A DNA stretch of 64,000 nucleotides, taken from positions 30,066,501 through 30,130,500 of the forward strand of contig NC_092672.1 in NCBI RefSeq assembly GCF_964355755.1. Reading direction: 5' to 3'. The stretch's first letter is position 1. Each line of letters starts with the position of its first letter. Of the stretch, positions 10,697 to 64,000 are shown one piece after another. The stretch is from Antedon mediterranea. Its lineage: Eukaryota > Echinodermata > Crinoidea > Comatulida > Antedonidae. Under the pieces are notes generated by a model. That model saw only the letters and a program-made list of their open reading frames with translations. It made no database searches and was not told the origin of the DNA. The translations under genes were made by a program, and so were the position numbers.

Positions 10697-13055
10697 AGGG
10701 CCTGTTTCTGCTGAGCAGAAATAATCGATTATTAACCGTTTATTTTTTTAATCGATTATTTTTGGGCAGCAGAAACGGCGCAAAATAAAATAACCGATTA
10801 AAAATAACCGATTAAAAACACTCAATCCATTGCGTGTTTTAATCGATTATTTCTTGTTTTAACCGATTATTGCGGAGCAGTTTTGAGCTGCAACACAAAT
10901 AGCGATTATTGACCTCACTTTGACCTCTAGAGTATGACAAACTTATTCACGTAACAAAGCATGCTGTTTTGCGCGATATCGACGACGATCAGCAAAACCA
11001 CGATCGCGATGTATACCGAATAACAATCACAGAGGTCCCAACTTGGGAAAGTCCATTCGCAGGAGATTTTGTCGTGAACCACATTCAATTCGTCGGGGCG
11101 TCGAAAGTCAACGCACGGGGAATCGAAAATCAACACGCGTGTCGTTTACGTCTCCTAATTAACTAAATATGTTACATACAATATATACAATATTTACACA
11201 TAAGTTGGTTTAATTTTTACATAGGTTTATCCATCATTATTTTTACATTCTTATTTTTTTTATGGACACATCCTCAGTACAAAGAATTTAAAAAATAAAT
11301 ACTGTATTTTAACTAAAATTCAGTATATAAAATAATTTAACTTAATTACATAATGTACAATATTTACACGTGATAGTATTGCCCAATAGAATTTACTCAT
11401 TATTTTTAGGCACAGGCCTAGCATAGGGCTTCTACTAGCTAGGCCCTAGCTAGCTACCATTTTAAAACCCCAAAACAATCGAAATAAACTATTCCGAATC
11501 CGTCTTATGCTACACGAGTTAACATATTATTTCAGATGACAAACATTGAGTTTTATATTGTTTTATCCATACGTAATTACACTGGCATTAAAGATATAAC
11601 ATTAAATAAAATGTAGGCCGTTTATGAGCTATTTCGCCGATTTCTTATCGCTGGGAAATTCCCCACCATCGACATCGATCGAGGAGTAGGCTAGAATAGA
11701 ATAGAGGCCTAGCGTGCATGCCGGAACGGGTGGATTATTGCTATATAAATAACAAGTTTGAACAAAAGAGCTTACGACAATCTTAGGTAAAGTTTTATTA
11801 AACGTAGGCCTACTTGCTTGGCGAATCCATATGCCTTTTAAATCATTTTAACATGATCGTATTATCGGATCGTACAGTAAAATCACCTTCATGGATGGTA
11901 AAACCAAATAAAACACCGCCTCAACAACCTCGTGCGATGTGCGACCTGTTGTTCTTTGCAGCGGATCAACATTGGTAGAGTCCATTAATTATGAGGGTGT
12001 TTAAAAATGTAATAACTATTAAAAACGTGTCTCAACCACTGTATAATCAAAGCGTTTATTTAGTTAAAACTTGGATCCTCCCACAATTGATAATCGCGTA
12101 TTCCGGTTACCACGTGATTGATTCACGGTTGGTTGCACGCTTTTTTTTTTCTACGTCCGGCGTGTAGTACCGTGCGGTACGCGAATGTTTATATTATTGT
12201 TACAGTGGCAGTGCATACAAATAAAAATACAATAATAGACCACGGAGACTGCATGAATAGACATTGTTTCAACATCCTGCCTCACTTTTGTATTGACTAT
12301 TGTTGACCTGGGCTGAGCCTGGGCGTAACCGTAAATCAATTTGGCCAAAAATATGGGAAAATTTGAAAATGCGGTAAAAAATTCAAAATGCGGTAGAAAA
12401 CGTCGAGATCGCGGTAGCGCGGTAGATGGGTACTAAAAGCGGTAGACTACCGCGAGTAGCGGTAGACTTGGGACCCCTGCAATCAAATGTTAAACATTTG
12501 ATTTGTATTATTTTGTGGGGGAGAATTATACCGAGAGACTCCAGGATTCTGTGTTACAAGTACACCCGTTACATACCACCAGTCCAGGCTAACGATGTTT
12601 TACATGTCATTTTTTAGGCCTGTTGTCTGTTGACTTGTTTTGGTAGAAATATATAGCCTATAGGCCTAGCAGGCCGAAGGTAGAACCAACGAACGGCGAA
12701 ACGAACTTTTTTCGCCGACGTGTCCTTATTAATATAACATCATTATTCTGTTGTATGTGGTACGGTAGTAGGCCTAGATGTTTATTTTACAAATAATATA
12801 GCTTTACGTAAGAGTAATTTTTAATCCTACATGTGAGAGTTTTAGGCAGCGATACGATGTTAAAACAAACCAACTCTCATCGGCCTTTCATAACTTGAAC
12901 TCCGCTGTGGGGGAATGATGACGTGATTTTAAAAACCGATTACCTGAATAACCGATTAAAGTCGTAGCAATTTTCAATTGCAACGCGATTATTTTTGTGG
13001 TTTGCGGTGATTGGAAAAAATCGATTATTTTGATTTTTTCAGCAGAAACAGACCC
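10697..13055. mobile_element. Large candidate TIR element, about 2.4 kb
   Basis: The left end AGGGCCTGTTTCTGCTG and right end CAGCAGAAACAGACCCT are near-perfect inverted repeats. Both are followed inward by repeated ATCGATTATT/AACCGATTA words. TCA occurs on both sides of the ends. The interior holds CGGTAG-rich sequence at 12360-12475 and no recognisable transposase, so it is a non-autonomous or composite element, perhaps with nested insertions. Confidence 0.5.
12360..12475 (+). repeat. CGGTAG-rich cluster
   Basis: GCGGTAG or CGGTAGA words recur about eight times at uneven spacing of 10-30 bases inside the 10697-13055 element. They could be subterminal binding repeats or a decayed minisatellite. 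Confidence 0.45.
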
Positions 13056-14486
13056 TCAGAACATGACATGACATGACATTCATGATAATAATAATGGAAA
13101 GTGAAACTTATTAATACTGTACTTTTGTTATAATTTATTAACAATATTAGTCATAAACATTGATACTACAGAAGACTATTTTTAGTTATTGTTTATATAA
13201 TAACCAAGCAAAATCATTCACTATCCTTCTATTCTTAAAAGTGGCAATTGTGTTCACAAGACAAACGTACTGTACACACAATATGCTATACATAAACAAA
13301 GTCCTATTAGTATTACACAGTCTTTTGGAGTGGAGAGTACGTTTTAATCATAGTAAACTTTTGTATGATAGTCTATAGATTTGACAAGAAATTTATTAAC
13401 AGTTTTAGGATTGTATTCAATAAGGATGTCATTATTCAGTGGAGTATTTCCTCTAAACACTTTATAGTATTATTTTTAGTAGGATATGAATGAATGTGTG
13501 TCGGTTGATTCCCAATTCGTAGTAAATTCTGCAGGTTTTCTTTCGTCCATCAAAAAAACTGTTTCATAATTATAATTTGGTTACTTATTTTTTTTCAAGT
13601 ATTATTGTTTATTTATTTATGAGACCTGACTTGCAAATAAGTGATTGAGAATAAATTAGTAATAACTAATGCAGCAGAAATGGTACACATTTCGAACAAT
13701 AAGGAGCATTCAACGTGTGAACGTTGCTTCCAACCTCGACACTGGTTTGATGGTTGTAGGTTCAGACGATGACCAATGACACATCAATTGACCTGACCTA
13801 GTTCGGTCATCGCAAATTGAAAGCTCCCTAATAAGGCCTGGTTCACGTCCGTCTGTAATCCAGATCGAGAGCTATTCAATAACTATTCCGATTACAGTCT
13901 GTATGTATGTGTCTACAGTACATGGTAGGCCTAGTGTACACTAATATGTATGGGTTTGACATTATGACATGTTGCTACTGTGTCAAACACGATGATGATG
14001 ATGATGAACCACACTAATTGGTTTGCTCTGGATGGTGTCGCTGGTGAATCAGTCATATTATCAGAATTAGTAAAAGGTGTTCACTTGAATGAATGAAGAA
14101 TGCTTTTTGCATCAGTTGGTCTGAAGAAAAAAAGTTGTGTAATAAACAATTGGGATTAAATCGAAACAACATGAATACATCAGGAAAAAAAAAAACATTT
14201 GAAATATGAGATAGTTGAAACATCAGATTGGTCTTACTTAGCCATATTTTACATACAATAGAAATAAATGAACTATATAGCTGATAACCTTTCACCTGCC
14301 CAACCCCAATGTAGGTATTTCCACACCTGTCCCAAATGGGTTTTATTTAGTTTTTAAAAAATCAACTTGAGTATTAAGAGTAAAGGAATTCAATTTGTAA
14401 ACAACTATGGGACAATATAATATTAAATTGATTCTTTTAAACTTTTATTGATGGTTGTAAAACATTTTTTTTTGTGTAAAATTTGC
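13056..14486. other. Gene-free stretch upstream of the TfR-like gene
   Basis: Contains a (GATG)-type run at 13990-14006 and a copy of the TAGGGAGCTTTC-type repeat end in inverse orientation at about 13811-13834. No promoter element could be assigned. Confidence 0.4.
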
Positions 14487-14546
14487 AGGTTAAAATTTAT
14501 GTGGATGGTTTAACAGTTGGCAGTGTCTGAGGTAGGTGAATAGAGG
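14487..14546 (+). other. 5' leader of the TfR-like gene, possible 5' UTR splice acceptor
   Basis: A T-rich tract followed by TTTGCAG ends at 14488, about 58 bases before the start codon, and would serve as an acceptor for a non-coding upstream exon. The ATG at 14547 sits in GAGGATGG, a good animal start context, and no upstream in-frame coding is visible. The transcription start was not located. Confidence 0.35.
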
Positions 14547-17500
14547 ATGGATCATCGAAACGATACAAATAACTCTGCTGCCACATATACACGCTTCTCT
14601 GGTGGCGGGGATGAGGAACTAGAAACGGGCGTGTATACTTTGGAGAATGAAGTTAGTCTACCAAACGGAAGTCCTAGCCGACCTCGTTTGATGTGGTGTT
14701 CGAACAATCGACGCATCTTGCTGGCCGGTTTTACGATCTTCTTGATTTTCTGTTTCGGTTTTATTTTTGGATATTTGGTACGGAGAAGTGTTCACAGTTA
14801 TGGGAGCACATGTCCGGAAAATGGAACGAATAAAAACCAGACGGATGGGACGGGAACGACTGTGGCTACTCCAACAACAGACGAGATTCTTAGTAATATC
14901 AGTTCTTTGATATCAAAAACTCTAATGACTGACAATAGAAGGTATGATATTGTTTTTACTGTAGAAATAGGATGCGCTCATGCTTTTAGTTAAGGAGCCT
15001 TTATGTCTACATGGAATTCAACTCAACTGAAAGGAACTAGTTGCGCGAGAGAGCTTATGTCAGCATTTTGAAAAACTGAACGAAACTGAACTGAAAGGAA
15101 CCAGTGTGCAAGCAAGTACTTATGTCGACACTGGAACCGATTGTAACTAGTCGTAGTCATAACGCGATTCGTAGTTGTATAGGAATACGTTAAAATAAAC
15201 TGATTGCGGTTACCCATACCGCACATGAGACTCGATTAGGGGTTTTCACTCACGGAAAAAATATAACATGGCAACATTATTTACCTGGGTAAATTTGATG
15301 ATCTACACACCAAAAGTTAGCGAATGAAACCAACTTACCCGAGTAAATAACTAAGCCTACACATGCATATTATAGTTATTCAATTAATATTGCCTTTTAG
15401 CTTTAATTTCCTGTCATTTTAAATGTGCAAATAATTTTTCTGACCATACCAACATAATCACTAAATGGTAACTAAATGTACATTAAAATTTTAAATAATT
15501 TAAATAATGTCAGTAAAATAAAGTGTTTAGATGTATTATTGGTATTAAAAAATACAGAAATGCATTTTTTAAACAGAAAATTATTTCAAAGTTTTCTGTT
15601 CTGATATTTCAATTTCAAGGAAGTTTATAGGACAAATTTGTTTACGTCATTAAACGATTATTATTTTTTGTTTACTGTTTTAGAAAATTCGGTGATGTGC
15701 AACATTTAGCAGCGTCAAATTGGAGCAATGCAATGGCCTCTGAAATACACAAGCAATGGACAGCCCTCGGATTCGAAACTACATTAAAAAAATATAATGT
15801 CACCTTGTCTACTCCAGGCTCGTAAGTGAAACAATATTATATTAAAAATTCAGACTACAAAAGGAAAGATCATACTAGGAGGTTAATAGGTTTCTTGGTT
15901 TGGGTAATTTTTATAGAGGTCATCAATATTCATGAGGTCATTAATATTCATGAGGTCATCAAGTCATAGTCTTACCACACATTAGACTCTTTAGTTTAAC
16001 ATTGAAGTTTTTTTTTTCCAGAAACGTTCTCACTGTTACTGGTTTACCAGGCTTGGCAACGCCGTTGTACAGCTCTGACGTAGGAGTTTACACACCTTAC
16101 AGTGTAAATATGTCAGCATCTGTAAGTATAATTATTCATAATAATACACAATATCCTTGAGATTTGATTGGTTGATTATGTATCGCCTGTCATGTATTAT
16201 GTTGAAAAAGTGCATTTATTTTTATTATATAATAGCAGCAATTGTTATTTTTCTTGTAGGGTCAGCCAATATTTGTAAATTACGGACGTCATAAGGATTA
16301 CACTCTTTTGACCGAGACTGCAAAATATCACTTTGACCAGCATTCTATTGCATTGGCAAGGATGGGCAAGATGCCTCTATCTGTTATGGTATGTTTGCTG
16401 TTTACAAAAGGCCAACTCAGATAGCATCGTATGATGAGCCCTGACGAGACGTCTTGTCAGGATAAGATTAAACATGTTTTAAAGTTCTCACGACAACCTA
16501 AAAACTATGCCTGATGCTAACTCAAGACATCTCTTCTGGATTCAAGTCGGACAGCACCGACGAGTCAACGTTTTGTCAGGCCTCGTCGTACGATCTGAGT
16601 TGGCTTTAACCATTTGTAGCAAACTGTGCTAGAAATGTACTTTTTATCCACTACCAAAATGAGCAACCCAAATAGAAGTTTGTATTAAGATATCTGCATA
16701 AAAAGGTTTAATTGTGTAAATGTTGGCTTGAACTTATTGCATTGGAAGCAGAAAATATTTATAACATACTGTACAGTATACATCCAAAACAATATTTATA
16801 TTTATTTGGTAATTTCTCGGCAAACAGCAAAATAGAATAGATAAAATCTTAAACAATTAATTAATTTTACAAAAAGCTGAATAATTTTACAGGCTGAACT
16901 GGCAGATCACTTCTACTCTGTGCCTACTTTATTTAGACAAAAAACTAACAAACAGCTATATTTTTTTTAATGGAGAGGGACCAAATATGGAATATGGCTG
17001 GACGAAACAGCCAAGCACACAATTAAATCTCTTTAAATACTTTTTTGTTATCTAGGCAAAAATTGCTGAAGAAAATAACATAAAGGGAATGATGGTATTT
17101 GCTGATCCGACGGATTATGCTCCAAATGTTGATTATACAAATGAGAAAACAAAAACATCGCAAGTTTTTCCCAACACTTTAGGGTTGCCACAGCGGACCG
17201 TCGTCCAGGACACAATCCTGACCTCAATGGGAGATCCATTCTCTCCTGGTTTTGCTTCAGGTTTGAAATTTCATTTTTATTCAAGACTTTTTTTCCAATT
17301 GTTTATTATTATTATGAAATGATTTCATTTGGAATCTAATATTATAGAACAGAAATTTTTCTTTTTTTTGATCCAAAATATTAAAGTATTAAAAATGGTA
17401 CTTACAATGATGTTTCACAAACAATCAGTTTCTTTCTCAAATAGATTGTTGATCTTACAGTCTTATTTGCATATTTTTGCAGGTGTTCATTTAGCATTTT

Positions 17501-20500
17501 TTTTTGCATGTACAATATGCTGTAAATTTCAAAACAAATAATTTCATTAATTATTTGAGAAATTTGCCAATACAATATGCAAATTCACCTTTCAATTTAG
17601 TACTGTTGAGAATGCTTAGATATGTTATATATTATATTTAGCTCATTTGCATATTGTTACAGGTGTTCAGCAAATAACATTTAATCAGACAGGATTTGCA
17701 AAAATACCAGTTATATCGGTTGGTTATGAAATTGCATATGCAATTATCAAGTAAGAATAATCAAGGCTATCTAACAACATGATACTGAAATCTGGAGATC
17801 AAAGGGTTTATCTGTGGCTGCCATAAGATCAGTTCCACGCCCCTTAACAGGCACCATGTCCTGTTGTTAGATTGCCTTGGAATAATTAGGTTCTTGCTAA
17901 AACTCAAAGGCATGGTTATAATTTCATTTAAAAAGTTGGCTTTTTATAAGAATACTTATTTTATGTTAATTATTAATTTTAAAAATTATTTATAAAATTT
18001 GCAGTCGAGGCAGTTTCATTCAGTTAAAAGTAAATAGAAATATAATATTTATATTATCTGCGTGTTGGACAAATAAGTGCTTGATTCTCATTTCCAACAT
18101 CATACCACTAGAAGTTAATTGTTCAATCTCGGCACTTCATTCTGAGGGGGAAAATGTATTTTATGACAATTATCCTTGAGGGAAATACAATCTTCAAATT
18201 TGAATTTTTGTTTTTTGTTATGACAGGAACATGCAAGCTGCTGCTCCTCCGAAAGACCAGTTCCCAGATTGGTCGGGAACTTTCGGAGATTATCACATAG
18301 AGGGCGGTACAACTCAGAATATAAATGTAGACTTGGATGTTGACAACAAACTAGAGCAAAAGGAGATTACCAATGTTATTTCTACAATTGAAGGAACAGT
18401 ACAACCAGGTGATTTTTTATTTTATGTACTTTATATTGAGATGTTTTAAGCTCTGTCTACACTATTAAAAAAATGTGATGTGCCCATATATGGACATGAT
18501 GATGTTATATCACTACCATATTTGGGCACAAACTAGTTTGATAGTGTAGACAGAGCTTTAGGTGGGTATCTCCTTTATGGTCAAACTACTCTTACTTTAC
18601 CAAGATGACGAAGATGTTTAAATAATTGACTAGAGAGCAACCTAATGCTAAAGTGATGCCAACAGGACTGTGGCTAAGTGACTGCCGTATATTACTATCT
18701 TCTGGGCTAATGTGATTCAGCCATATCAGGTGACCACTATCCAAATTCCATAACGACTCAACCTGTTTGGACAACCAAATATTAAAATCATCTTAACTTG
18801 GTTCAGGTAACCAGCTACATAGAGACATCTGGTATCCATTGACATAAAGTTGGCATTAGATTAATTTAATTGTACACAATAGAGAGAAATGGCGAACCGC
18901 GATGACGTCACTCAAATTTCACCGAGTGGGTATAGATTGTAAACAAACCATTTCGCCACATGTTTTTGTATGGGAAGTTCCGATGGGTTGAGTTAAAAAG
19001 GAAGGTAGAAAAGAACGTTTAAAACACACATAATAGCAGTATCTTTTTTTTGCAACACCCTTAACAATTTTAATGTTATATGGGCAAATCTTAACATATT
19101 TTATTTTAATTTGGATTGAATTAAGACCCCTTTTTGTTATATACTGTACCCAGCTCTAGGCCCTAGTAGAGATAGTTGGCCTGTATGCTGTAGTACCTCG
19201 AGCCTAGCACGGATTATCGGTTATTATAATACTGTAGTAATAATAATAAGTTATTGCATACTGTACTACTACTACTACTACTTTAGCTAGGGTGCTGCTA
19301 GGCCTCTCCTAGCTAGGTAGTAAGACTAAATAGAGCATCTCTAGTAGATGTAGGCCTAGCATTAGTTTCAGCTTGACAACTGCCATTTTGTTATGTGGCT
19401 AGTGATGCTTCCTGCATGGGGGAGGGGGGGGGGATACCGCCAGTAATGAATACTTGATAACACCATTCTACTATAATACAATAGGCCTAGTCTAATGTAG
19501 ACCTACAGATATGAGATATTTTTAGGAATATGATTGTGAATGATGGATGACTTTTATACATATTTCATTGTTTTATTGTGTAAATACACAAATACAACAA
19601 GAATTATGATGAGTGTTACAGCAACAACATTGGTTAGACGACGCCATGATTCACGTGTATAAACATAGGAAATGTGTCGCCCTCAACGGTTTGTTATGAT
19701 TTTATACCCACTCGGATTTTAGACGTCGGTTCGCCATTTCTCTCTATTGTTTGGGTTTGTTTTTTTGAAAGTGACATACTACAGACATTGCAATAAGTTA
19801 CACAACGTGCTTCCTTGATATTTTATTTATTGCGACTTGCATTTCTGTTTCGTTATAGATCAATATGTGATAATTGGCGGTCATCGTGACTCTGTTAGCG
19901 TTGGTGCCAGTTCACCTGGCACTGGATTAGTGTGCCTTTTGGAAGTGGCTCGTCTCTTGCATTTCTTGATAGATAATCGTGGTATGTATTTTTACTACGT
20001 ATTGTTGTTTTTTGTTTTTATTTTGTACACTTTCTACTTTTATTGTTGTTTGTTTAGTAATTTTAAAGCTCGGGTACAGGCATGAATTTTAAGTATAATA
20101 TTTGGTTAATTGTACTAAAATCAAATACTGGTATGTATATACCATAACTAAATAAACTAATTTTTTTTGTCAGCTGTTTAAAATATTTTCTTAACTTGTT
20201 GCAGGCTAAATGTTAACAAACTGTATTACTGTATGTTGTATTGTTATTATGTTTTTGAGTAAAGATAACAATTTTAATTAAGAAGGTAAAATTTAACATT
20301 TAGTTTATTTTGATTCATTTACTGGTCACTTTTTTACATACTGTATACAATATCAAAAATACATTGCAAAATCAAAAATATTAGTACTTGTGTAACTATT
20401 ACTATATAAAACTTAGGTTGGAAGCCATACCGTAGCATCATGCTAGTCAGCTGGGATGCTGGTGGATCAGGCCAGATTGGCTCAACAGAATGGGTGGAGG

Positions 20501-23500
20501 AGAACCTGAGCCTACTGAAGAAGAGTGTTGTTGCATACATCAACTTGGACAATGCTGTCCCCGGCAATTATTCATTTGATGCCTCAGGCTCACCACTTCT
20601 GTCAAATGTCGTGTATGAAGCAAGTAAAAATGTAAGTTGGTGAGGCGTAGTTTTGTTTGTTTGGGAGAGGCTAGTTTAGCATATAAGCTCAGGAGTTGTG
20701 GCCTGATGGTTATGATGCTTGGCTGCCAATCCAAGGGTCCTGGGTTCAAGTCCTGTCATATGTCAGGATTTTTTCTAATGACAATTTACAACTCCACTCC
20801 CAAAGACTTGTAATAAAGACTTTGTTTATGTAGAGCATTGTGTGTATATGTTTGTCTCGTGAACGGATTGCCACCTTTAAGAAGGATAGTGATTGAATTT
20901 GCTTATGGTTATCCTTGGCAATTTGCCTAAATATATAAAATAAATAAATAAAAATAAATAAATAAAAATAAATAAATAAAAATCACTGCCTTCCTAGGAG
21001 AAAAATGTTCTTGTAGTTGTATAATATAAAGCTCTGTCTACACTATCATCAAACTAGTCTGACAAAATGATGTGCCAAATATGGTAGTGATATGATGTCA
21101 TCGTGTCCATATATGGTCACATCACATTTTTTTTTTGTTACATAAAGTTGCATAGTGTAAACAGAGTTTAACAATGGTACAGTAATTTTTAAAATATTTA
21201 TTTTTTTTTTGCAGGTGAAATGTCCAAGTCATGAAAAAATGAGCATTTATAAAGACTGGATGAACAATGCGGTAGATAAAACACTGGATAAGACAAACCC
21301 AAGGTACTGTATATGTTGTGACAGAGTTTTCCTACAAAATAATGTTTTTTAGACAAATTTCTATGATCCATCTGAACACCAAGTGCTTGGACATTCGCTG
21401 CCTTTTTTACACGTCACACAGTTGGCTCACAGAGGGGTAATACAAATACATTAGACTATAATTGTACTTGTATCGGATTGAATATTTTCAATAATCATCA
21501 ATTGGTAATAATTAGATTGACTATTTGTGTTATTATAGCTTCTGTTCCAACTGCAACCTTTTAAAGTAATTGGTTCTTTTTCAGCTTGAGTATTCCTGGT
21601 AGTGGGTCAGATGACAGTCCTTTCTTTCATCTGGTTGGAGTTCCTACAATATCACCTAGTTACACCTATAATAAGGTCAGATATGGTGCATACTTCAACT
21701 CAACCAATTAATGATGTATTGTCCCCCAAAACATGAACAATAAAGATGAATATCAAACTTTAAATAGGCCATTTTGTAGTGTTCTGATAATTCTACAGTA
21801 AGGGATCCTCTTCCATTGTTCTGATAATTTCACAGTAGGAGACCCTCTTCTAGCGTGCTGATAATTTTACAGTAGAGATCCTCTTCTAGTGTGCTGAACG
21901 TTCTACAGTAGGTAATATGCTTCCATTGTACTGATAACTTTAGATTAGGGGATCCTCATCTTATTTGCTGATCATTTTGAGGGGATCCTCTTTTAATGTG
22001 CTGATAATTTTACAGTAAGGGATCCCCTTCTAGTGTGCTGATAATTTTATAGTAGTTTATCCTTTTCCATAGTGCTGATAATTTTACAGGGATCATCTTC
22101 TGATGTTGTGATAATTGTACCATTACCAGTCATTTTTTATCCTCTACAGAGAAACATAAGAGTTGATAAGCTACCCATATACAACACAAAATTGGATACG
22201 TCTCGACTCATCAACATGACAGATGCTTCTCTTGAATACCATGAAGCTGTCGTCAAAGTGACACTCAGAATTTTGTACGAGATTGCCGATAAACCTGTGT
22301 TACCATTCTCAGTTGTCAACTATGCTGATGTACTTCTTCAAGGCTTACAACTACTCCAAACTTCAAACAACCAAAAGTATTCTGGCCTAGGTAAGGATAT
22401 ACTACTTTTCCTGTTAAGCAACCCTCTGTCAAAGGACACCCATATTAAGGGATATTTCTATTAAGGGACACCCATATTAAGAGATACTTCTATTAAGGGA
22501 CACCCCTATTAAGGAATACTTCTATAAAGGGACACCCCTATTAAGGGACACCTGTTAAGGGACACCCATATTAAGGGATACTTCTATTAAGGGACACCCC
22601 TATTAAGAGATACTTCTATTAAGGGACACCCCTATTAAAGGACACCTATTAAGGAACACCTGTTAAGGGACACCTCTATTAAGGGACACCTCTATTAAGG
22701 GACACCCATATTAAGGGACACCTCTATTAAGGGACACCCATATTAAGGGATATTTCTATTAAGGAACACCCCTATTAAGGGACACACCTGTTACGGGGCA
22801 CATAGCAGAGGCCTCTTTGATTGTCATTATTATTAAACTTCATAGTAGCATTGTAATGTGGTTGTTTTTTGTCTTTTATGGGTTCTTCCCACTTTTATTT
22901 CTTCAAAATAATGTAGCTCATAAATAAATACAGAATTATTGCACAATTAATAGTGTACACTAAAGTTTATCATAAAAATGTTACATTAAGATGAAAAATT
23001 TACACAAAAATATACTGATTGTGGTTGTTAGTAAATATTGTTTGTATTGTAGTTTAAGAGAACGCACCTTTATGCTGAATTGTGCCGCTGTTACAGAAGC
23101 ATATGTTCAAAGAATTATTATTATATCATTATTGATTTTTGTTTTCTTAGATCAACTAGAAACTGGTATCAACAACTTCAGAGCTAGTGCAGTGGAATTT
23201 ACAGAAAAGGTTGATGATGCCATCAAAAATGCTAATACTGATTTGTAAGTCTTATTTTGCACACACAACTAACGTTGCAATTTATAGACTTCGTCGATTC
23301 CAGTGTGTCTGGAAAAATATCAATATTCGTTTAGTATAGGCAAATTCCTAAATATAGTGTAACTTTACTTTAAAAGTGATTGCCATGATAAAGTTGTAAC
23401 ATGTGACAAACATATGATGCTATATCACTTTCCTAATATACTGAGCAAACTAAAATACAATGTGGCAGTATTTGTGTGCAGGCTTAGCCTAAAAATAGAT

Positions 23501-24484
23501 AAACTTTACATGACAACTCTTTCCTATCCATCCACCACTTACAATCTTATTGTCTTTATTCATTGTTTACGATTTTATTTTAACAGATACCCAAGTATCA
23601 ACTACATATTGATGTCTTTAGAAAAGGTATTTTTAAGTAAATTTCAACGTCAACATTTTAAAGAGTACAGGTAAGACCTTTTTTTTGGTGTACCATATTT
23701 GTTTAAATAAACTTTTGGTGTACCATACTTGTTTAATAACCTTTTTAAGTGTATCATACTTGTTTAAAGACCCTGTTGGTGTACCATACTTGTTTAAAGA
23801 CCCTTTTGGTGTTCCATACTTGTTTAATAACCTTTTAAGTGTATCATACTTGTTTAAAGACCCTTTTGGTGTTCCATACTTGTTTAATAACCTTTTAAGT
23901 GTATCATACTTGTTTAAAGACCCTTTTGGTGTTTCATACTTGTTTAATAACCTTTTAAGTGTATCATACTTGTTTAAAGACCCTTTTGGTGTTCCATACT
24001 TGTTTAATAACCTTTTAAGTGTATCATACTTGTTTAAAGACCCTGTTGGTGTTCCATACTTGTTTAATAACCTTTTAAGTGTATCATACTTGTTTAAAGA
24101 CGCTGTTGGTGTACCATACTTGTTTAAAGACCTTTTTTATGTATCATATATTGTACGGATATCGTACTCAACGTACGACAGATTACTCTGCACATGTGTC
24201 AGGCTTACGAACAGTGTTTTAATCATCAAGTTAGTATTTAGGGCATAAAATTTAAACAAATTAAAATCTAGGTATAATTGAAATAATGAGTGTTTGATTA
24301 TCTCTCTATTAGACATATGATGATAGGACCCACGTTACAGAAAGCTTACAGCGGAATAGTGTTTGCTCCTCTCTCAGATGCATTAGAACGAGAACAGACT
24401 GATATTGTAGAAAACACAATCCTGGAAATCATCTCAGCATTGAATCAAGCATCTCAGCTCTTGTCTTTCTCAAACCTGCCTTGA
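14547..24484 (+). CDS. Transferrin receptor-like protein (TfR/GCPII family, inactive peptidase fold), 15 exons
   Basis: Exons: 14547-14941, 15684-15821, 16022-16121, 16260-16388, 17056-17260, 17663-17750, 18227-18408, 19859-19981, 20417-20631, 21215-21303, 21585-21675, 22150-22390, 23151-23244, 23587-23670, 24313-24484. All junctions are GT-AG with matching phases, giving 781 residues (human TfR1 has 760). Order: 56-residue cytosolic tail with YTRF at 14-17, one membrane span about 57-78, stalk with NxS/T sites, protease-like domain with inserted apical domain, then the helical dimerization domain (about 600-781). Against GCPII, zinc ligands H421 and D498 remain, but D387, E425 and H553 are replaced by S431, G470 and N597, and the catalytic base E424 by G469 (SWDAGGSG). 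The INLDNAV...SPLL...NVK stretch is closest to TfR. I infer a non-catalytic endocytic receptor on the plasma membrane; the ligand is unknown. The human RGD transferrin-contact site is not conserved (TGI at 670-672). A GCPII-like dead paralogue is the alternative. Confidence 0.9.
14586..14597 (+). other. YTRF endocytosis signal codons in exon 1
   Basis: Residues 14-17 of the TfR-like protein read Y-T-R-F, followed by S, within an acidic, serine-rich 56-residue N-terminal tail ahead of the membrane span. In human TfR1 the tetrapeptide YTRF at residues 20-23 is the clathrin-adaptor internalization signal. Position, orientation (type II) and tail length all match, so rapid constitutive endocytosis is inferred. 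Confidence 0.75.
16407..16607. mobile_element. MITE in TfR-like intron 4 (AAGGCCAACTCAGAT ends)
   Basis: Left AAAGGCCAACTCAGATAGCA and right TACGATCTGAGTTGGCTTT are inverted repeats. The similarity continues inward through GCCCTGAC/GTCAGGCC. About 200 bp, non-coding. Confidence 0.65.
17761..17882. mobile_element. Short MITE in TfR-like intron 6
   Basis: Left CAAGGCTATCTAACAACATG and right TCCTGTTGTTAGATTGCCTTG form inverted ends of about 20 bases around a 120-bp element. Confidence 0.6.
18447..18562. mobile_element. MITE family A copy in TfR-like intron 7
   Basis: Begins TAAGCTCTGTCTACACTATT and ends TAGTGTAGACAGAGCTTTA, with the core ATGTGCCCATATATGG. It starts within 40 bases of the exon 7 donor. 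Confidence 0.75.
18876..19750. mobile_element. TIR element of about 875 bp in TfR-like intron 7
   Basis: Left end CAATAGAGAGAAATGGCGAA; right end is the exact inverse, TTCGCCATTTCTCTCTATTG. A second inverted block (GAGTGGGTATA / TATACCCACTC) extends the terminal repeat to about 80 bases. The interior has TAGGCCTA words, a TACTAC run and a G run at about 19422, but no transposase. Confidence 0.75.
20687..20992 (+). mobile_element. tRNA-derived SINE in TfR-like intron 9
   Basis: The head has an internal RNA polymerase III box A (TGGCCTGATGGT at 20699-20710) and box B (GGTTCAAGTCC at 20743-20753). A body follows (ACAACTCCACTCCC...AAGACTTG) and then an AAATAAAT repeat tail at 20936-20992. The head resembles a tRNA, but the full cloverleaf is degraded, so this is a SINE rather than a tRNA gene. 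The relative at 53006-53160 shares the body. Confidence 0.75.
21027..21171. mobile_element. MITE family A copy in TfR-like intron 9
   Basis: Starts AAAGCTCTGTCTACACTATC and ends CATAGTGTAAACAGAGTTTA, with the core GTGTCCATATATGGTCACAT. Confidence 0.75.
21715..21785. mobile_element. Truncated MITE family C copy in TfR-like intron 11
   Basis: ATGTATTGTCCCCCAAAACAT followed by GGCCATTTTGTAGTGTT matches only the left part of the family; the right end is absent. Confidence 0.5.
21779..22092 (+). repeat. Minisatellite of about 45-bp units in TfR-like intron 11
   Basis: About seven degenerate units containing GTGCTGATAATTTTACAGTA and GATCCTCTTCTAGT. Each unit carries a TTTTACAG or TTCTAG that imitates a 3' splice site. 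The true acceptor (CTCTACAG) is at 22149, about 60 bases after the array. Confidence 0.75.
22426..22805 (+). repeat. TATTAAGGGACACC minisatellite in TfR-like intron 12
   Basis: Roughly 15- to 30-base units of TATTAAGGGACACCC alternating with GATACTTCTATTAAGG, repeated over 20 times, starting about 35 bases after the exon 12 donor. The core is shared with the dispersed GGGACAC repeats. Confidence 0.85.
23676..24150 (+). repeat. 60-bp minisatellite in TfR-like intron 14
   Basis: At least six near-identical 60-bp units, each made of two diverged 30-bp halves (AAGTGTATCATACTTGTTTA and TTGGTGTTCCATACTTGTTT). The array begins about five bases after the exon 14 donor. The period is a multiple of three, so one frame stays open for 187 codons (VSYLFKDPFGVPYLFNNLL repeats); this is an artefact of periodicity. 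Confidence 0.9.
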
Positions 24485-25139
24485 AGGGGACTAGCAATGG
24501 GGGCTTAATGAATGTCTAGCAAAGGGGCTTAGTGAAGGGGCCTAGCGTCTATGCTTGGTACTGCATTATGAAATTCATCATACAGGAAGATATTTAAGAA
24601 ACATGAATGATATGATGTAGAGGTATGATTTGTTTAGGATTGTATACTTCAAAAGTTAATAAGGATTTTCGTTGATTTTTACAAAATATTATGACAAAAA
24701 AAAATTAATCTTTAGGTTCTGTTGGAGTTTGTTTGTTATAAGTTGCGAAAAGAATAATAATGTGCAATTGGTTATTTATTATTCATTATGCAAATGTTTA
24801 TAACAAAATGAGACGCTCATGTGGCAATTGACGTACGCTACATAGAGTGTTCGCGCTCCACAGAAGCGGTAATACAGGTGAATAAAATATACACGCTTAT
24901 GTCAACAACGGGTACACCAATCTAAATACCTGTGTAAAGCGTGTGTACGCGATCTTCTATAGCATGGTTCAATTGCAGACTATTGCATCCCATCGGTTAT
25001 ATAGTTCTGATATCGTCTAGAAATTCACATGAACTACTGTAAAATATGATACGCAGAAATAATGATTTAAAGTCAAATTTGAAATGAAAACAATTTTGCG
25101 AGGTATTCACTACCGTACTACAAAGAAAAGGTCCAGTCA
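24485..25139 (+). other. 3' UTR and downstream flank of the TfR-like gene
   Basis: Non-coding sequence after the stop codon. A candidate AATAAA polyadenylation signal lies at 24881-24886. A short GGGGCTTAGTGAA-like duplication follows the stop codon. No CAGTGN loop with a C-bulged stem (iron-responsive element) was found by eye, unlike the IRE-rich 3' UTR of vertebrate TfR1. Confidence 0.4.
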
Positions 25140-25545
25140 AAGAAATATTGTAATAGCAGCTGCCTGATAAAACTGTTTTTTAGTGAGGGATGTATACATA
25201 TTTATTCAGTAAAAAATTTGATCGAAGATGATTTTTTCAATTTGCATTTATGGAGCAGTCGAAAAAAAAGTATTGTAATAGCAGCTGCCAAAAACTGATT
25301 GCAATATGTCTGTGATGGATGTACAATGGATGGAACATATACCACACTAGTTCAGTTTAAATTTGAAAATTCAAGTTGATTTTTGCTTTTTGCAATAGCA
25401 GCTGTCTAAGACTGATAAAACGCAGCTGCCAAAACTGATAACTGCTTGCAATACTGTGTGTCCATGATGGTTGTAAGAAGTTTAGAACATGTGCCGCACT
25501 GGTTCAAGCTAAATTTAAAACAGTTATATAAAAAATTTGATGCGA
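25140..25545 (+). repeat. Degenerate tandem repeat around AATAGCAGCTGCC
   Basis: Three or four diverged units of roughly 125-165 bases share TGTAATAGCAGCTGCC, AACTGAT and GATGGATGTA blocks. Non-coding. Confidence 0.6.
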
Positions 25546-25604
25546 TTTTCGTAATGTACATGTGATAAATGTTTAAAAAAAACTACAGCGACAGACTTTA
25601 TGAT

Positions 25605-25672
25605 GAAATATTCAATTTGTTTATTTTTATATTTTCAATATGCTAACTAAATTAGATATACCAAAGGTGTCA
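25605..25672 (+). repeat. Direct repeat, partner at 26329-26396
   Basis: AAATATTCAATTTGTTTATT through ATATGCTAACTAA is repeated with few changes 724 bases downstream. Confidence 0.6.
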
Positions 25673-25750
25673 TGTGCCCAAAATGGTAGTCATTTGTTCA
25701 TATCACTTTTTTTTTTGTTACATAAAGTTTGATAGTGTGAAAGAGCTTTA
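25669..25750. mobile_element. Partial MITE family A copy
   Basis: Only the right half is present: ATGTGCCCAAAATGGTAG ... AAAGTTTGATAGTGTGAAAG and GAGCTTTAG. Confidence 0.6.
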
Positions 25751-26328
25751 GACATTCATACTAAAATCGATTGTTATGTGTTGCTGCATGCTTACTGACA
25801 TTACGCAATGAAGATGTGTAATATTCAACAGAAGGCAGGGTTTTAGTTTTAAATTTGTTTACATGCGTGACACGCTATTACACAGCTATTGAATCATTCT
25901 GTGCATACTACATGTTTGAAAGTGTGTACACAGAATGACTTTTTGACTCACCGGTTGAATTGTCATTAAAAGAAAGAAATATTATGTCTATAGTGTCAGA
26001 ATAGACAGTAGTAGTTAATATTATAATTTAAATTATGGTTATTATTGACACATTATTATTATTATTATTCATTTTTCACTATTATTTACCCTACGAAGAT
26101 ACTGTATAAAAGTAATAAATATTACTATATAAACAACAAATAATGTGGTAAGTCAGGACTACACAGAACAAACATTGATATTATTTTTAAGCTTGTTAAA
26201 TTTTCATAAAACATGATACAATTATTAGTAATAACCTTTTATTATTTAAGCAAATAATTAATGGAATACATTAATTTTCACTCGAGTACATCATGCCTAA
26301 AAGGCCTCAATGCTATGTACTAAAAAAG

Positions 26329-26396
26329 AAATATTCAGTTTGTTCATTTTTATATTTTCAATATGCTAACTAATTTAAATATACCAAGGGTTATGT
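26329..26396 (+). repeat. Direct repeat, partner at 25605-25672
   Basis: Second copy of the AT-rich block containing TATTTTCAATATGCTAACTA. Between the copies there is only AT-rich non-coding sequence. Confidence 0.6.
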
Positions 26397-27608
26397 CAAA
26401 CAGCTATTCCACTCAGGGTTTTTGGACTAAACTTCATTTTTTATTAATTACAGTTTTATTCACAACATACTGTATGAAAATATTATCATGTCATATTGGT
26501 ATTTTTAATATGTTTCTATATTATCTTTTACTTCTATGAAAAAATCTATAAAGGTATTTCATAAAATGTAGTTATTGCCATTTTTTATATTTATAACACT
26601 TGCTTTTTTAAGTCTTTAATTGTTTTAGATTTTTGACTTTTTTGAGTTATTTATTTATTCTCTATTAATAATATTCATAATATTTATATAAAAAAACACA
26701 AACCTAGGGCGGATTGCAATAAAAAGGTAATGATCACCTGGTTTTAGCCGAGACTTTGTAATGTGTTTATACCTACAATAATACACATAAGTAGTGTAAT
26801 ACATGAATAAATAAATATATTTATGTATATATGTACATGAATGGAATACTTAACGTATAATCTTATAATAAAAATAAGGGAGGAGTTAGAATAGGGAGCT
26901 TGCGATTTACGACGACTGTGGAACTAGGAACAAGGTCATGTCAATTTATGTGTCGTCAGTCGCCGTCTGGACCTAGAAACCAACAAAACTCTAGTCGAGG
27001 TGGAGCGAGAGGAAGTGCTTCCTAAATTCCCTGCATTCGTACAATGAAATGACATAACTTGTTAGGTTGCCAATTGTCGCACCAAAAGCTTTCTAATAAT
27101 TAACTTGTGAACAAAATAATTGAAATTTCTTTTATTTACTTTTTTAATATAGTTACATGACTATGATATTGTAATGTACTTTGGCTGTAGACTTTCATGA
27201 AATCCCAAGTCAGGCTTAAGCCCTTATCCTTATATTGCAATCCGTCCCTGAACATGTTACAAAATAAGGGTGCTTACATTTTTTTCCTTTCATTACCGTT
27301 TTAATTTGTAATATAAATATTGAGGTGTTTTGTTGTTGTTTTTTTTTTCAAAATTTGTAAATATTGTAAATACAGATTTCTATACTGCCTACAGAAAATA
27401 AGTGTTTGCAGAATTTTAAATTTTGTTCTAATATGGTTTAAAAATTGTGTTTTTACATGTTAAACAAGAGCTTTCTTTTTAATAATTTATTGCTTACAAA
27501 TAAGAACCTTGGCACCCGCAGGGGTCTGGTTATGTACAAAATTATAAAATGAATTGCTTTCAATCAAGTGGTTAAAAATGTTAAGTATTCATTTGAATGT
27601 TATCTTGT
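26397..27608. other. Gene-free stretch
   Basis: AT-rich. A repeat copy beginning TAGGGAGCTTGCGATTTACG at about 26892 is the only recognised item; its relatives are at 13811, 39928 and 42660. Confidence 0.4.
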
Positions 27609-27757
27609 TAAGCTCTATCTACACTGTCAAACAAGTTTGAAAAGTGTTATGTGCCCAAATGATGGTAGTGATATGCCCAAATATGGTAGTGATGTGATGT
27701 CATCATGTCCATATATGGGCACATCAAATTTTTTGATAATGTAGACAGAGCTTTAAT
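27609..27757. mobile_element. MITE family A copy
   Basis: TTAAGCTCTATCTACACTGTC to AATGTAGACAGAGCTTTAA, with a doubled GCCCAAATATGGTAGTGAT core. Confidence 0.75.
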
Positions 27758-28269
27758 TAGAAACTTACTATTTAAGATAAAGTGACTAATAGTGTTAATT
27801 TGTTACCATAATCATTTTGCCAAATTCGAAAAGGTTTACTTTCTTTAACAATTTAAAGTTTTCTTTTCTTTTTAATTGGAGAATAACAAATCCAATAATG
27901 GATTCTATATTTATCGACTGAAATATTTGTACAAGTTTGTATGCTGCTCTTCCATAGGTTAAAAACATTGTTTGCAGTTCTTGCAGGGTGTTGTTGTTGA
28001 AGTTTTAATGTTTTGCTGTGTTGCAATTTTTCTATGCTGCGTGTATTTTAAGGCAACTGATTTTTTGTTTTTATTGTCTAGTTTTAGTTTACTTGATTGA
28101 TACATGATTGGTATCACGTCTAGCGATGTTAAACATCCTGCTGTATCGTGTCTTCTGACTGCTACCTTCATCCCATGGGATACTGTAGTATAGTAAGAGA
28201 TTATTTAGAAGGTTGTATAAGTTAAAATTTAGGAGTATGCCAACAGCAGACACGATTACAAAAGGATGT

Positions 28270-61773: not shown

Positions 61774-64000
61774 ATGCCTAGTTCGGGATTTATATTAGGC
61801 CTACTCCTTTTTTACGCTGTATTTGTAGACGGAGTATTTCAGTTAAGACCCATATCAACGATTTATATTCCGTCAGGATACGATTCCGATGATTCTCCGA
61901 GCTACGAAATCGACGGAGGAGCGATCGAGCAAAGCGCGTATGATAATGTCAACAAACTTGTATATGGTGCTGGTAGGTAACAGTGACATTTTAGAAACGG
62001 GGAGCAACGGGGAGTGGACCTAGGTTTTTTTTTTTGTATCCGCGTAGGCCTATGAGAGCAAACATTCGTCGTCAATGGCGCTCCAAAATAACATATTGAT
62101 ATAGTATTATTAGCGTTTGCATAACAAACAAAAATCGTAAAATGCAATATATACTATCTTAGAATTCAGGTTAGTTCGTGTTTGTATTCCAATCCCGGAG
62201 TTCTGGGTTCAAGCTCTTTAATAGGACAGAACGGGCAATGTGCAAATACAAAACAAATATTCGTTTTAGATTATCAGTATTATTTAAAAAAGTAACCCGT
62301 TACGGTCTTTTTCTGCCTTACTTGTGTGGTTATACTTCGCATGGGATGAGTAAGTATAAAAGCGCACCCTGGTAAATGTACTCGTTGGCGTCGCGTGATC
62401 CTGAAGTGCAGTACAGTATACAAACCTCTTCAGAGGACCCACCCAACCAAAATCTTCCCGTGAAACGAGCAATTAATGTTTTTTAACTTTTTAACACTCA
62501 AGCGACAACCCTAATATTGTCATTCCCTTGGCATATACTGAAAATAACTCTTTATGTCTACAGAAGAATTAGCTTCAAGATTTTATTGTGTTCAAATTCG
62601 CAGGTTCTTCCTTCATACACGTGATAGATTTCTCCAACGCATCCAACCCAATCATCATAAAGAAGGTTCACACACCAGGAGTCGCTAATGACATCGAGTT
62701 ATGTGGTGACTTCGTAGCTGTAACTGTCTCCAATAATGATCCATATCAACCAGGGACAGTACTTATATTTAGTTTGTACAACAAGACAGATGACAGTTTC
62801 CAAATTATTCAAAATATAACAGGTTTTGTATCAATATTATTTTGTTCTTCTGACAATCGTTTGAATACGAATTTTAACTTGTAACATTCTACTTTAACGT
62901 TAAAATTGTATCAATGTGATGACAATCCTTTATTTTATTTATATATTACGCTACCTTATGATTTGTGAATGATTAATATGATTTTACTAATGTTATGTAT
63001 ATAAATTGAATTATGCTTAAGTGTAGTTATATTTGTATAATTGCTTTGTATGACATGTACTGTGATCATTTACATCTCAATTGGATTTATAATTCTACTT
63101 CAGTAAAATTAAATTGAACTCACGATACGTTAGATTGAATTATAACTAAATGTAATTACATTGTATGTATTTGTATTAATGTACTATGTGCCTTTTAACA
63201 ATATTGATCTAGTATATCTATCTTTTAATTGTACATATAATTATACTAAATTATAATTGAGTAAAAAGTTAAATTTACTTATATTAAGTATATATATCTG
63301 TATTTGTGATCTGTATAGATATACTAGATCAATATTGTTAAAAGGCACATAGTACATTAATACAAATACATACAATGTAATTACATTTCTTGTTAATTCT
63401 GGAAGATTTAATTGATGTTTCTGTTAGTTGTTTTAAAATGTTGTATTTGTTAATCTGAGGCGCCTTGAAGCTAAGGTGGTTCCATCTTGTAAGGCGCCTC
63501 TGTGTAATATACTGAATAAAAAAAATAAAAAAAATATATATCTGTATGATCATTTACCTTTGAATTATACATACTTAAATTTAATTTATAGCCTACTTAC
63601 TTTTTTTTTAATTATTTTATTTATACTTACTGTATATTTAATCGTATTGTGTTTTCAATAAAAATGCATGCTCCTCTCCAAATCCATTTGATCATTTACC
63701 TCTGAATTGTACTTAAGTAAAATTGTATTTTACGTAAGCAAAATGCTAAGTTATATAGAAGTATACTTAAGTTTATTGTGACGAATAATCGTTCTTATCG
63801 AGTATAAATTAATGTATAAATACATCTTTTTAAAGTTGGCAGCGAACCAGACATGTTAAAGTTTACAAAAAACTGCAGGAGTATTGTAGTTGCGAATGAA
63901 GGCGAGGCATTTACAAGTACTGATGGAAATGATATTGTTAACCCAGAAGGATCGCTATCAATTATTACATTCGCTTCAAACGATCTTTCGAAATCTCCAA
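61774..64000 (+). CDS. Msp130-like cell-surface glycoprotein, 5' part (3' end beyond window)
   Basis: Exons 61774-61972, 62604-62822 and 63836-64000 (running off the end) join in phase 1 at both introns, giving 194 residues so far. Residues 1-20 form a hydrophobic secretion signal (GFILGLLLFYAVFVDG). Then come beta-propeller-like repeats (SSFIHVIDFSNASNP; VANDIELCGDFVAV), and the family signatures VGSEPDML (140-147), VVANEGEA (157-164) and NPEGSLSII (175-183). These are typical of Msp130, the GPI-anchored surface protein of sea urchin skeleton-forming mesenchyme cells, and of the bacterial choice-of-anchor I proteins from which it is thought to derive. It is inferred to act outside the cell in calcium or mineral handling. 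The anchor region is not in view, so GPI attachment cannot be confirmed. Confidence 0.85.
63148..63388. repeat. Perfect 74-bp inverted repeat in Msp130-like intron 2
   Basis: Arms at 63148-63221 and 63315-63388 are exact reverse complements over 74 bases (for example GTACTATGTGCCTTTTAACA and its inverse), with a 93-base spacer. Lack of any mismatch suggests a recent insertion or gene conversion between the arms. Confidence 0.9.
63450..63540 (+). mobile_element. Retroelement-like 3' end with hairpin and A-rich tail
   Basis: GAGGCGCCTTGAAGC ... GTAAGGCGCCTC forms a hairpin, followed by ATACTGAATAAAAAAAATAA. A GCGCC stem plus an A-rich tail looks like a truncated LINE/SINE end. Confidence 0.45.

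Follow-up and report, generated by a model that had tools for sequence, protein, structure and literature searches.

Among the closest described counterparts of the gene reported here are the vertebrate transferrin receptors, TfR1 and TfR2. The RGD motif of TfR1 binds transferrin, and an iron-responsive element (IRE) is present in TfR1 mRNA. For TfR2, binding of transferrin through RGD has likewise been described (PMC12045970, PMC6316356), along with a YQRV motif in the tail (PMC6316356) and an mRNA that lacks an IRE (PMC12045970). In the tail of human TfR1, the tetrapeptide YTRF occupies residues 20-23 and the membrane segment begins at residue 68, which leaves 44 residues between them (PMC12045970). 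The substitutions Y20H and R22W impair uptake by TfR1 (PMC10811203), and YTRF is thus a working signal where it has been tested. Outside the vertebrates, NAALAD2, a member of the GCPII family, has been proposed as a stand-in that does the work of TfR in sponges (PMC7034838) and in the razor clam (PMC12896564). The accessible portions of these two papers ascribe a peptidase domain to the proteins and, for one sponge, a 3' IRE, with no mention of a dead active site or a YTRF tail. Our searches of the open literature found no paper that connects YTRF with a transferrin receptor in invertebrates. Genes of this kind may, however, already be annotated automatically in sequence databases. Here, we describe a gene from Antedon mediterranea (contig NC_092672.1), located in a 64,000-nt stretch that we refer to as the window and whose positions are used throughout. 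Its predicted protein joins a TfR1-type tail signal to a degenerate peptidase domain, and our best reading, which we hold with modest confidence, is that of an endocytosed, catalytically dead receptor of the TfR/GCPII family.

The gene extends from 14547 to 24484 on the plus strand, as the original prediction had it, and consists of 15 exons whose borders were chosen by eye on the printed sequence and then joined. All introns are GT-AG, and the 2346-nt frame encodes 781 residues plus a stop, with no internal stops. When the human GCPII ectodomain was used to guide a spliced alignment, most of these exons were recovered, though some borders shifted and some spurious small exons appeared. A frame that is open across 15 exons, together with conserved introns, rules out a pseudogene. 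Pfam searches of the protein returned Peptidase_M28 (3.8e-16) and TFR_dimer (2e-12), both over the cut-off. There was no Pfam match to a PA domain at E up to 1, but the region can nonetheless be aligned with that of GCPII. In the PDB, the best matches were GCPII (262 bits), GCPIII (256), NAALADL1 (235), and TfR1 (144). Its predicted layout is that of a type II membrane protein, and the gene product belongs to the TfR/GCPII family.

Exon 1 (14547..14941, +) encodes the predicted cytosolic tail (residues 1-56), the membrane segment (about residues 57-79), and a stalk with one cysteine (C89). Residues 14-17 of the tail (14586..14597, +) read YTRF, a YxxPhi-type internalization signal identical to residues 20-23 of human TfR1. 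Since the hydrophobic 19-residue maximum starts at residue 57, 39 residues lie between F17 and the segment, compared with 44 in TfR1. The earlier claim that the tail shares its tetrapeptide with TfR1, in the same type II orientation and at a nearly equal distance from the membrane, was therefore accurate. Among 200,000 shuffles of the tail, YTRF appeared in a fraction of 0.00038 and Y-[TQ]-[RK]-Phi in 0.0029. Any YxxPhi appeared in 0.26, so that only the exact YTRF is notable.

The tail also stands apart from those of its relatives in the same genome, whose contigs are denoted here by C and a number. Searches with GCPII, TfR1, and NAALADL2 matched the window gene (on C3), two genes on C7 (C7 and C7b), and three genes on C10 (C10a, C10b, and C10c), in addition to a weak match on C2. 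All five of these paralogues are without YTRF. Four of the five tails contain no YxxPhi of any kind, and that of C10a has YLMF at the edge of the membrane. The window gene encodes 56 residues before the hydrophobic core and C10c encodes 55, compared with 8-24 in the four catalytically intact paralogues; the long tail of C10c contains no tyrosine. The best match of TfR1 in the genome was the window gene (44% over one exon), and a search with the window protein itself (E up to 0.001) gave 15 matches, every one of them to its own gene. The M28 model matched further stretches on C6, C10 (16.1 Mb), and C2. A TfR or NAALADL2 orthologue elsewhere in the genome was considered and set aside, because matches other than the weak one on C2 fell only on C3, C7, and C10, in searches that may miss weak exons. 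The C2 match (C2:32706312-32706569, -) was to NAALADL2, with an E value of 0.31 and 33% identity over 88 residues.

The second line of evidence concerns the active site. In an alignment of 17 proteins, exon 8 (19859..19981, +) keeps GGHRD, with H421 corresponding to H377 of GCPII, and has S431 in place of D387. Exon 9 (20417..20631, +) encodes SWDAGGSG, in which G469 and G470 replace the catalytic E424 and the ligand E425; the same exon retains D498, the equivalent of D453. Both exons were also recovered by GCPII-guided splicing. In exon 12 (22150..22390, +), the alignment places N597 at the position of the ligand H553. Four of the six active-peptidase positions are thus replaced, including the catalytic glutamate and three of the five zinc ligands, in agreement with the earlier statement that the glutamate and most ligands are gone. 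GCPII and NAALADL1, in contrast, have full catalytic sites. On the strength of these substitutions, we regard the window protein as catalytically dead. Glycine also occupies position 424 in both TfR1 and TfR2. Within the A. mediterranea genome, all six positions are intact in C7, C10a, and C10b, as are five of five in C7b, the model of which stops before H553.

C10c has taken a different path. It has lost all five zinc ligands (H377N, D387T, E425I, D453N, and H553R) but keeps E424, so that two family members in this genome look dead, each by different changes. C10c lies on the minus strand of C10 at about 2.079-2.0907 Mb (loci L107, L108, and L023), where it adjoins a catalytically intact member on the opposite strand, and its stalk is rich in threonine and proline.

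The first exon, on which the tail signal depends, was compared with those of the paralogues, which were picked by the hydropathy of the membrane segment and a similar stalk. The coding frame opens at 14544, directly after an in-frame stop, which makes the ATG at 14547 the first in exon 1. Junctions read by eye place the end of the exon in phase 2, as in all five other family genes, and at a seemingly equivalent position in the stalk helix. Because this phase-2 end is common to the paralogues, an alternative first exon for the window gene is less likely. Among the 13 later introns, 12 agree in phase with introns of C7, C10a, and C10b and are no more than 4 alignment columns away from them. The phase of the intron after residue 177 differs from that in these three genes. 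Exon 7 (18227..18408, +), which was found in the joined model and by GCPII-guided splicing, and exon 9 each lack one intron that is present in all of C7, C10a, and C10b.

If the protein acts as an endocytic receptor, it would be a homodimeric type II protein at the cell surface. The mu2 subunit of AP-2 would read YTRF in the tail, and uptake would proceed through clathrin pits. The genome contains a mu2 gene (AP2M1; matched at C3:1.104 Mb) whose identity to the human sequence is 75-81%. The ectodomain, composed of the dead peptidase, apical, and helical regions, would serve as a binding platform for a ligand. Two observations weigh against this reading. YxxPhi signals of any kind are common by chance, as the shuffled tails demonstrate. 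In addition, C10c is dead and has a long tail without tyrosine, so that the death of the enzyme is by itself no sign of endocytosis; a dead paralogue without the tail tag means that catalytic loss alone says little about receptor function.

An alternative explanation links the window gene to NAALADL2, the other family member that is dead in humans, as its invertebrate relative with the same role. We consider this unlikely, but it fares best among the alternatives. Like the window protein, human NAALADL2 is of type II with a dead catalytic site and a long tail, which carries YQKV at residues 20-23 in the sequence used here. The NAALADL2 sequence used in our comparisons is unverified, which itself counts against the proposal. 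At the loosest threshold, the window gene shares 15 of 165 NAALADL2-derived residues, compared with 7 of 139 for C10c, 4 of 161 for TfR1, and 6 of 162 for TfR2 (Fisher p of 0.012 against the others pooled). This slight excess is confined to the loose threshold: at stricter ones the window gene no longer leads C10c (6 of 91 versus 6 of 81, and 5 of 74 versus 5 of 66). A union with NAALADL2 was not rejected in the 17-row tree (p-AU 0.585). Yet NAALADL2, at 24% identity, has the lowest score of the five human members against the window protein (119 bits, compared with 258 for GCPII, 236 for NAALADL1, 175 for TfR2, and 144 for TfR1). It also has a much longer tail and has lost D453 and D379, both of which the window protein has kept. 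The pairwise scores did not support an early idea that the window gene is NAALADL2 itself.

The trees bear on each of the alternatives. The paralogue and transferrin models, which were built with a custom splicing script, are only approximate at their ends. The trees used the window protein from residue 101 onward and C7b up to the last exon that was certain, and 15 residues of presumed intron were removed from C10c. The 17-row tree, the reduced trees, and the alignment included 6 bacterial loci, while an earlier 21-row tree, which did not resolve, included 10 of 80; L086, L093, L095, and L097 were dropped. With 17 rows, the window gene joined TfR1, TfR2, and NAALADL2 at 83/90, with the order inside this group not resolved and a long-branch warning from the program. 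The best tree united the window gene with TfR at 45/0, and neither the NAALADL2 union nor a union with C10c (p-AU 0.158) was rejected. When NAALADL2 and C10c were left out, the window gene fell beside TfR at 87/89, again with a long-branch warning; when TfR and C10c were left out, its position was not resolved. At sites derived in both partners, the window gene exceeded the expectation of a simple model with TfR1 (14 observed, 6.4 expected), TfR2 (13, 5.8), NAALADL2 (15, 5.8), and C10c (9, 4.1). Under a stricter threshold, the corresponding values were 5 (2.7), 8 (2.6), 6 (2.8), and 2 (1.8). TfR1 and NAALADL2 showed no such excess with each other (4, 6.1 expected). Taken together, the trees and shared residues point to a weak kinship with both TfR and NAALADL2 that is decisive for neither.

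It seems improbable that the window gene is an orthologue or pre-duplication relative of vertebrate TfR1 and TfR2 that takes up iron-loaded transferrin. With TFRC and TFR2, the window gene shares the type II orientation, a long tail with Y-[TQ]-R-[FV] (here the exact YTRF), a dead M28-like domain, a TFR_dimer domain, and the change of E424 to glycine, and LDNAV and SPLL matches are visible by eye. Its position beside TfR when NAALADL2 and C10c are excluded fits the same proposal, as does the presence in the genome of a transferrin that keeps its iron ligands, described below. However, support for that union collapses once NAALADL2 is included, and long branches meet in both trees. In the 17-protein alignment, the window protein lacks RGD, where the aligned residues are INN, as well as the RLYW stalk motif. 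It keeps H377, has serine rather than lysine at D387, and is about 25% identical to the receptors. No IRE was found, either as an Rfam match at E up to 5 in 13500-27500 or in our own plus-strand scan of 13001-28000. Residues derived in both TfRs (loosest threshold) are shared at 4 of 56 positions, compared with 4 of 47 for the dead C10c and 2 of 52 for NAALADL2. The original prediction of a functional TfR-type endocytic receptor, rather than a peptidase, thus survives as a type II, dimer-domain, dead protein with a TfR1-type tail signal. It is not supported for a TfR type by descent or ligand, considering the missing RGD and RLYW, the share of derived residues, and a tree that groups the gene with NAALADL2 as much as with TfR. 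The original prediction named as contrary evidence a place inside the NAALADL or GCPII clades with YTRF missing from close relatives; the NAALADL2 union was not rejected and the local paralogues lack the tetrapeptide, which leaves that outcome neither established nor dismissed.

Gene order did not settle the matter. Scoring covered part of the candidates only (in the search that included GNB, 21 of 194, with one GNB-type locus among those 21). Pieces of AP2M1, PI3K, and GNB matched on C3, the contig of the window gene, which favors a TfR orthologue insofar as their human relatives lie at 3q26-29 and 7q22 with TFRC and TFR2. Pieces of FXR1, TBL1XR1, PCYT1A, MCM7, and DLG matched best on C5. Of these, we take PCYT1A and MCM7 to be human neighbors of TFRC and TFR2, and TBL1XR1 to be a human neighbor of NAALADL2, so that their location argues against a TfR orthologue and a NAALADL2 relative, respectively. 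NLGN pieces also matched best on C5, but at 33%, which is near the level of other esterases on C2 and C1. The ACTL6A piece was not distinguishable from other actins, and the PAK2 piece had no match in the genome. Since matches on C3 and C5 are mixed, gene order decides nothing about orthology, and we rejected an assignment on that basis.

Similarly doubtful is the idea that a GCPII-type gene was copied and lost its activity independently in this lineage to give the window gene, with a coincidental YTRF and a role unrelated to uptake. The best scores are indeed to GCPII, C10a, and NAALADL1, in each of which the catalytic site is complete, the intron layout is that of the intact GCPII-like paralogues, and C10c provides a second dead member. 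Against this, the exact tetrapeptide is rare among shuffles, the tail is longer than in the intact paralogues, and the tree groups the gene with TfR and NAALADL2 instead of local paralogues, a grouping that long branches may cause.

The remaining exons, all on the plus strand, complete the model. Exon 2 (15684..15821) was recovered by GCPII-guided splicing too, which sets different starts for exon 3 (16022..16121) and exon 6 (17663..17750). The apical/PA-like region includes exon 4 (16260..16388), placed by the joined model and alignment, and exon 5 (17056..17260), placed by the joined model and GCPII-guided splicing, as were exon 10 (21215..21303) and exon 11 (21585..21675). The dimerization domain begins in exon 13 (23151..23244), the exon without RGD, and continues in exon 14 (23587..23670), according to the joined model and Pfam. 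Exon 15 (24313..24484) ends with the stop codon at 24482-24484.

Several introns contain repeats. Intron 7 contains, at 18876-19750, an element whose inverted ends (24 nt matching at 100% and a further 31 nt at 81%) are separated by about 830 nt, likely a DNA transposon remnant or a MITE, and, at 18448-18558, a short hairpin element with ends AAGCTCTGTCTACACTAT. A stretch in intron 9 (about 21030-21170) resembles the AAGCTCTGTCTACACTAT hairpin by eye, although a repeat search returned an A/T-rich pair only. A 60-bp tandem repeat of 7.8 copies in intron 14 (23683-24148) creates a spurious open frame of 203 codons, and further tandem repeats occur in introns 11 (21780-22120) and 12 (22434-22801). 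Downstream, at 61874-63984 (+), short coding-like stretches resemble, by eye, an MSP130-like surface protein with a beta-propeller; two of the pieces had no Pfam match over the cut-off, and the same was true of six further short open stretches within the window. Elsewhere in the genome, C7:27617213-27617941 (+) contains a 22-mer that differs by one letter from sea urchin miR-2012, in two copies separated by 707 bp, with none for a reversed control, which points to Ambulacraria. A vertebrate source for the genome was rejected on this ground, together with the single GNB-type locus among the 21 of 194 scored candidates and the best TfR1 match being the window gene itself.

As for what a receptor of this kind might bind, the genome encodes two transferrin-family genes. 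The first (C11:3.036-3.052 Mb, loci L110-L111) is a two-lobed transferrin with 39% aligned identity to human transferrin. It keeps 8 of 8 iron-ligand positions and has lysine for the anion-binding arginine in both lobes. The second (C4:29.000-29.016 Mb, loci L112-L113) keeps 2 of 8 and resembles the iron-less transferrin known as toposome or major yolk protein in echinoderms, which it may represent. We know of no receptor for the yolk protein of sea urchins. That protein is endocytosed by sea urchin oocytes (PMC5854732), and the word "receptor" is absent from the same paper; we found no paper in the open literature on major yolk protein together with a transferrin receptor in echinoderms. Because RGD and RLYW are absent and two transferrin-family genes are encoded, transferrin-family cargo is possible for the window protein, bound through residues other than those used by vertebrates. 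The coexistence of iron-competent and iron-less transferrin genes makes such cargo testable, and with the tail signal and mu2 in the same genome, a simple test of uptake and binding is feasible.

A broader and quite speculative scenario, which we think has a small chance of being correct, would derive TfR, NAALADL2, and the window protein from one old, dead-peptidase endocytic receptor with a tail signal, Y-[TQ]-[RK]-Phi, that predates the vertebrates. In ambulacrarians, this receptor would serve transferrin-family cargo, including the iron-less yolk transferrin taken up by oocytes. Should the tail signal prove to be conserved, receptor-mediated uptake in this family would predate both the vertebrates and the known transferrin-binding residues. 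The window protein would then be a concrete candidate for the receptor of transferrin-family cargo in echinoderm-like animals.

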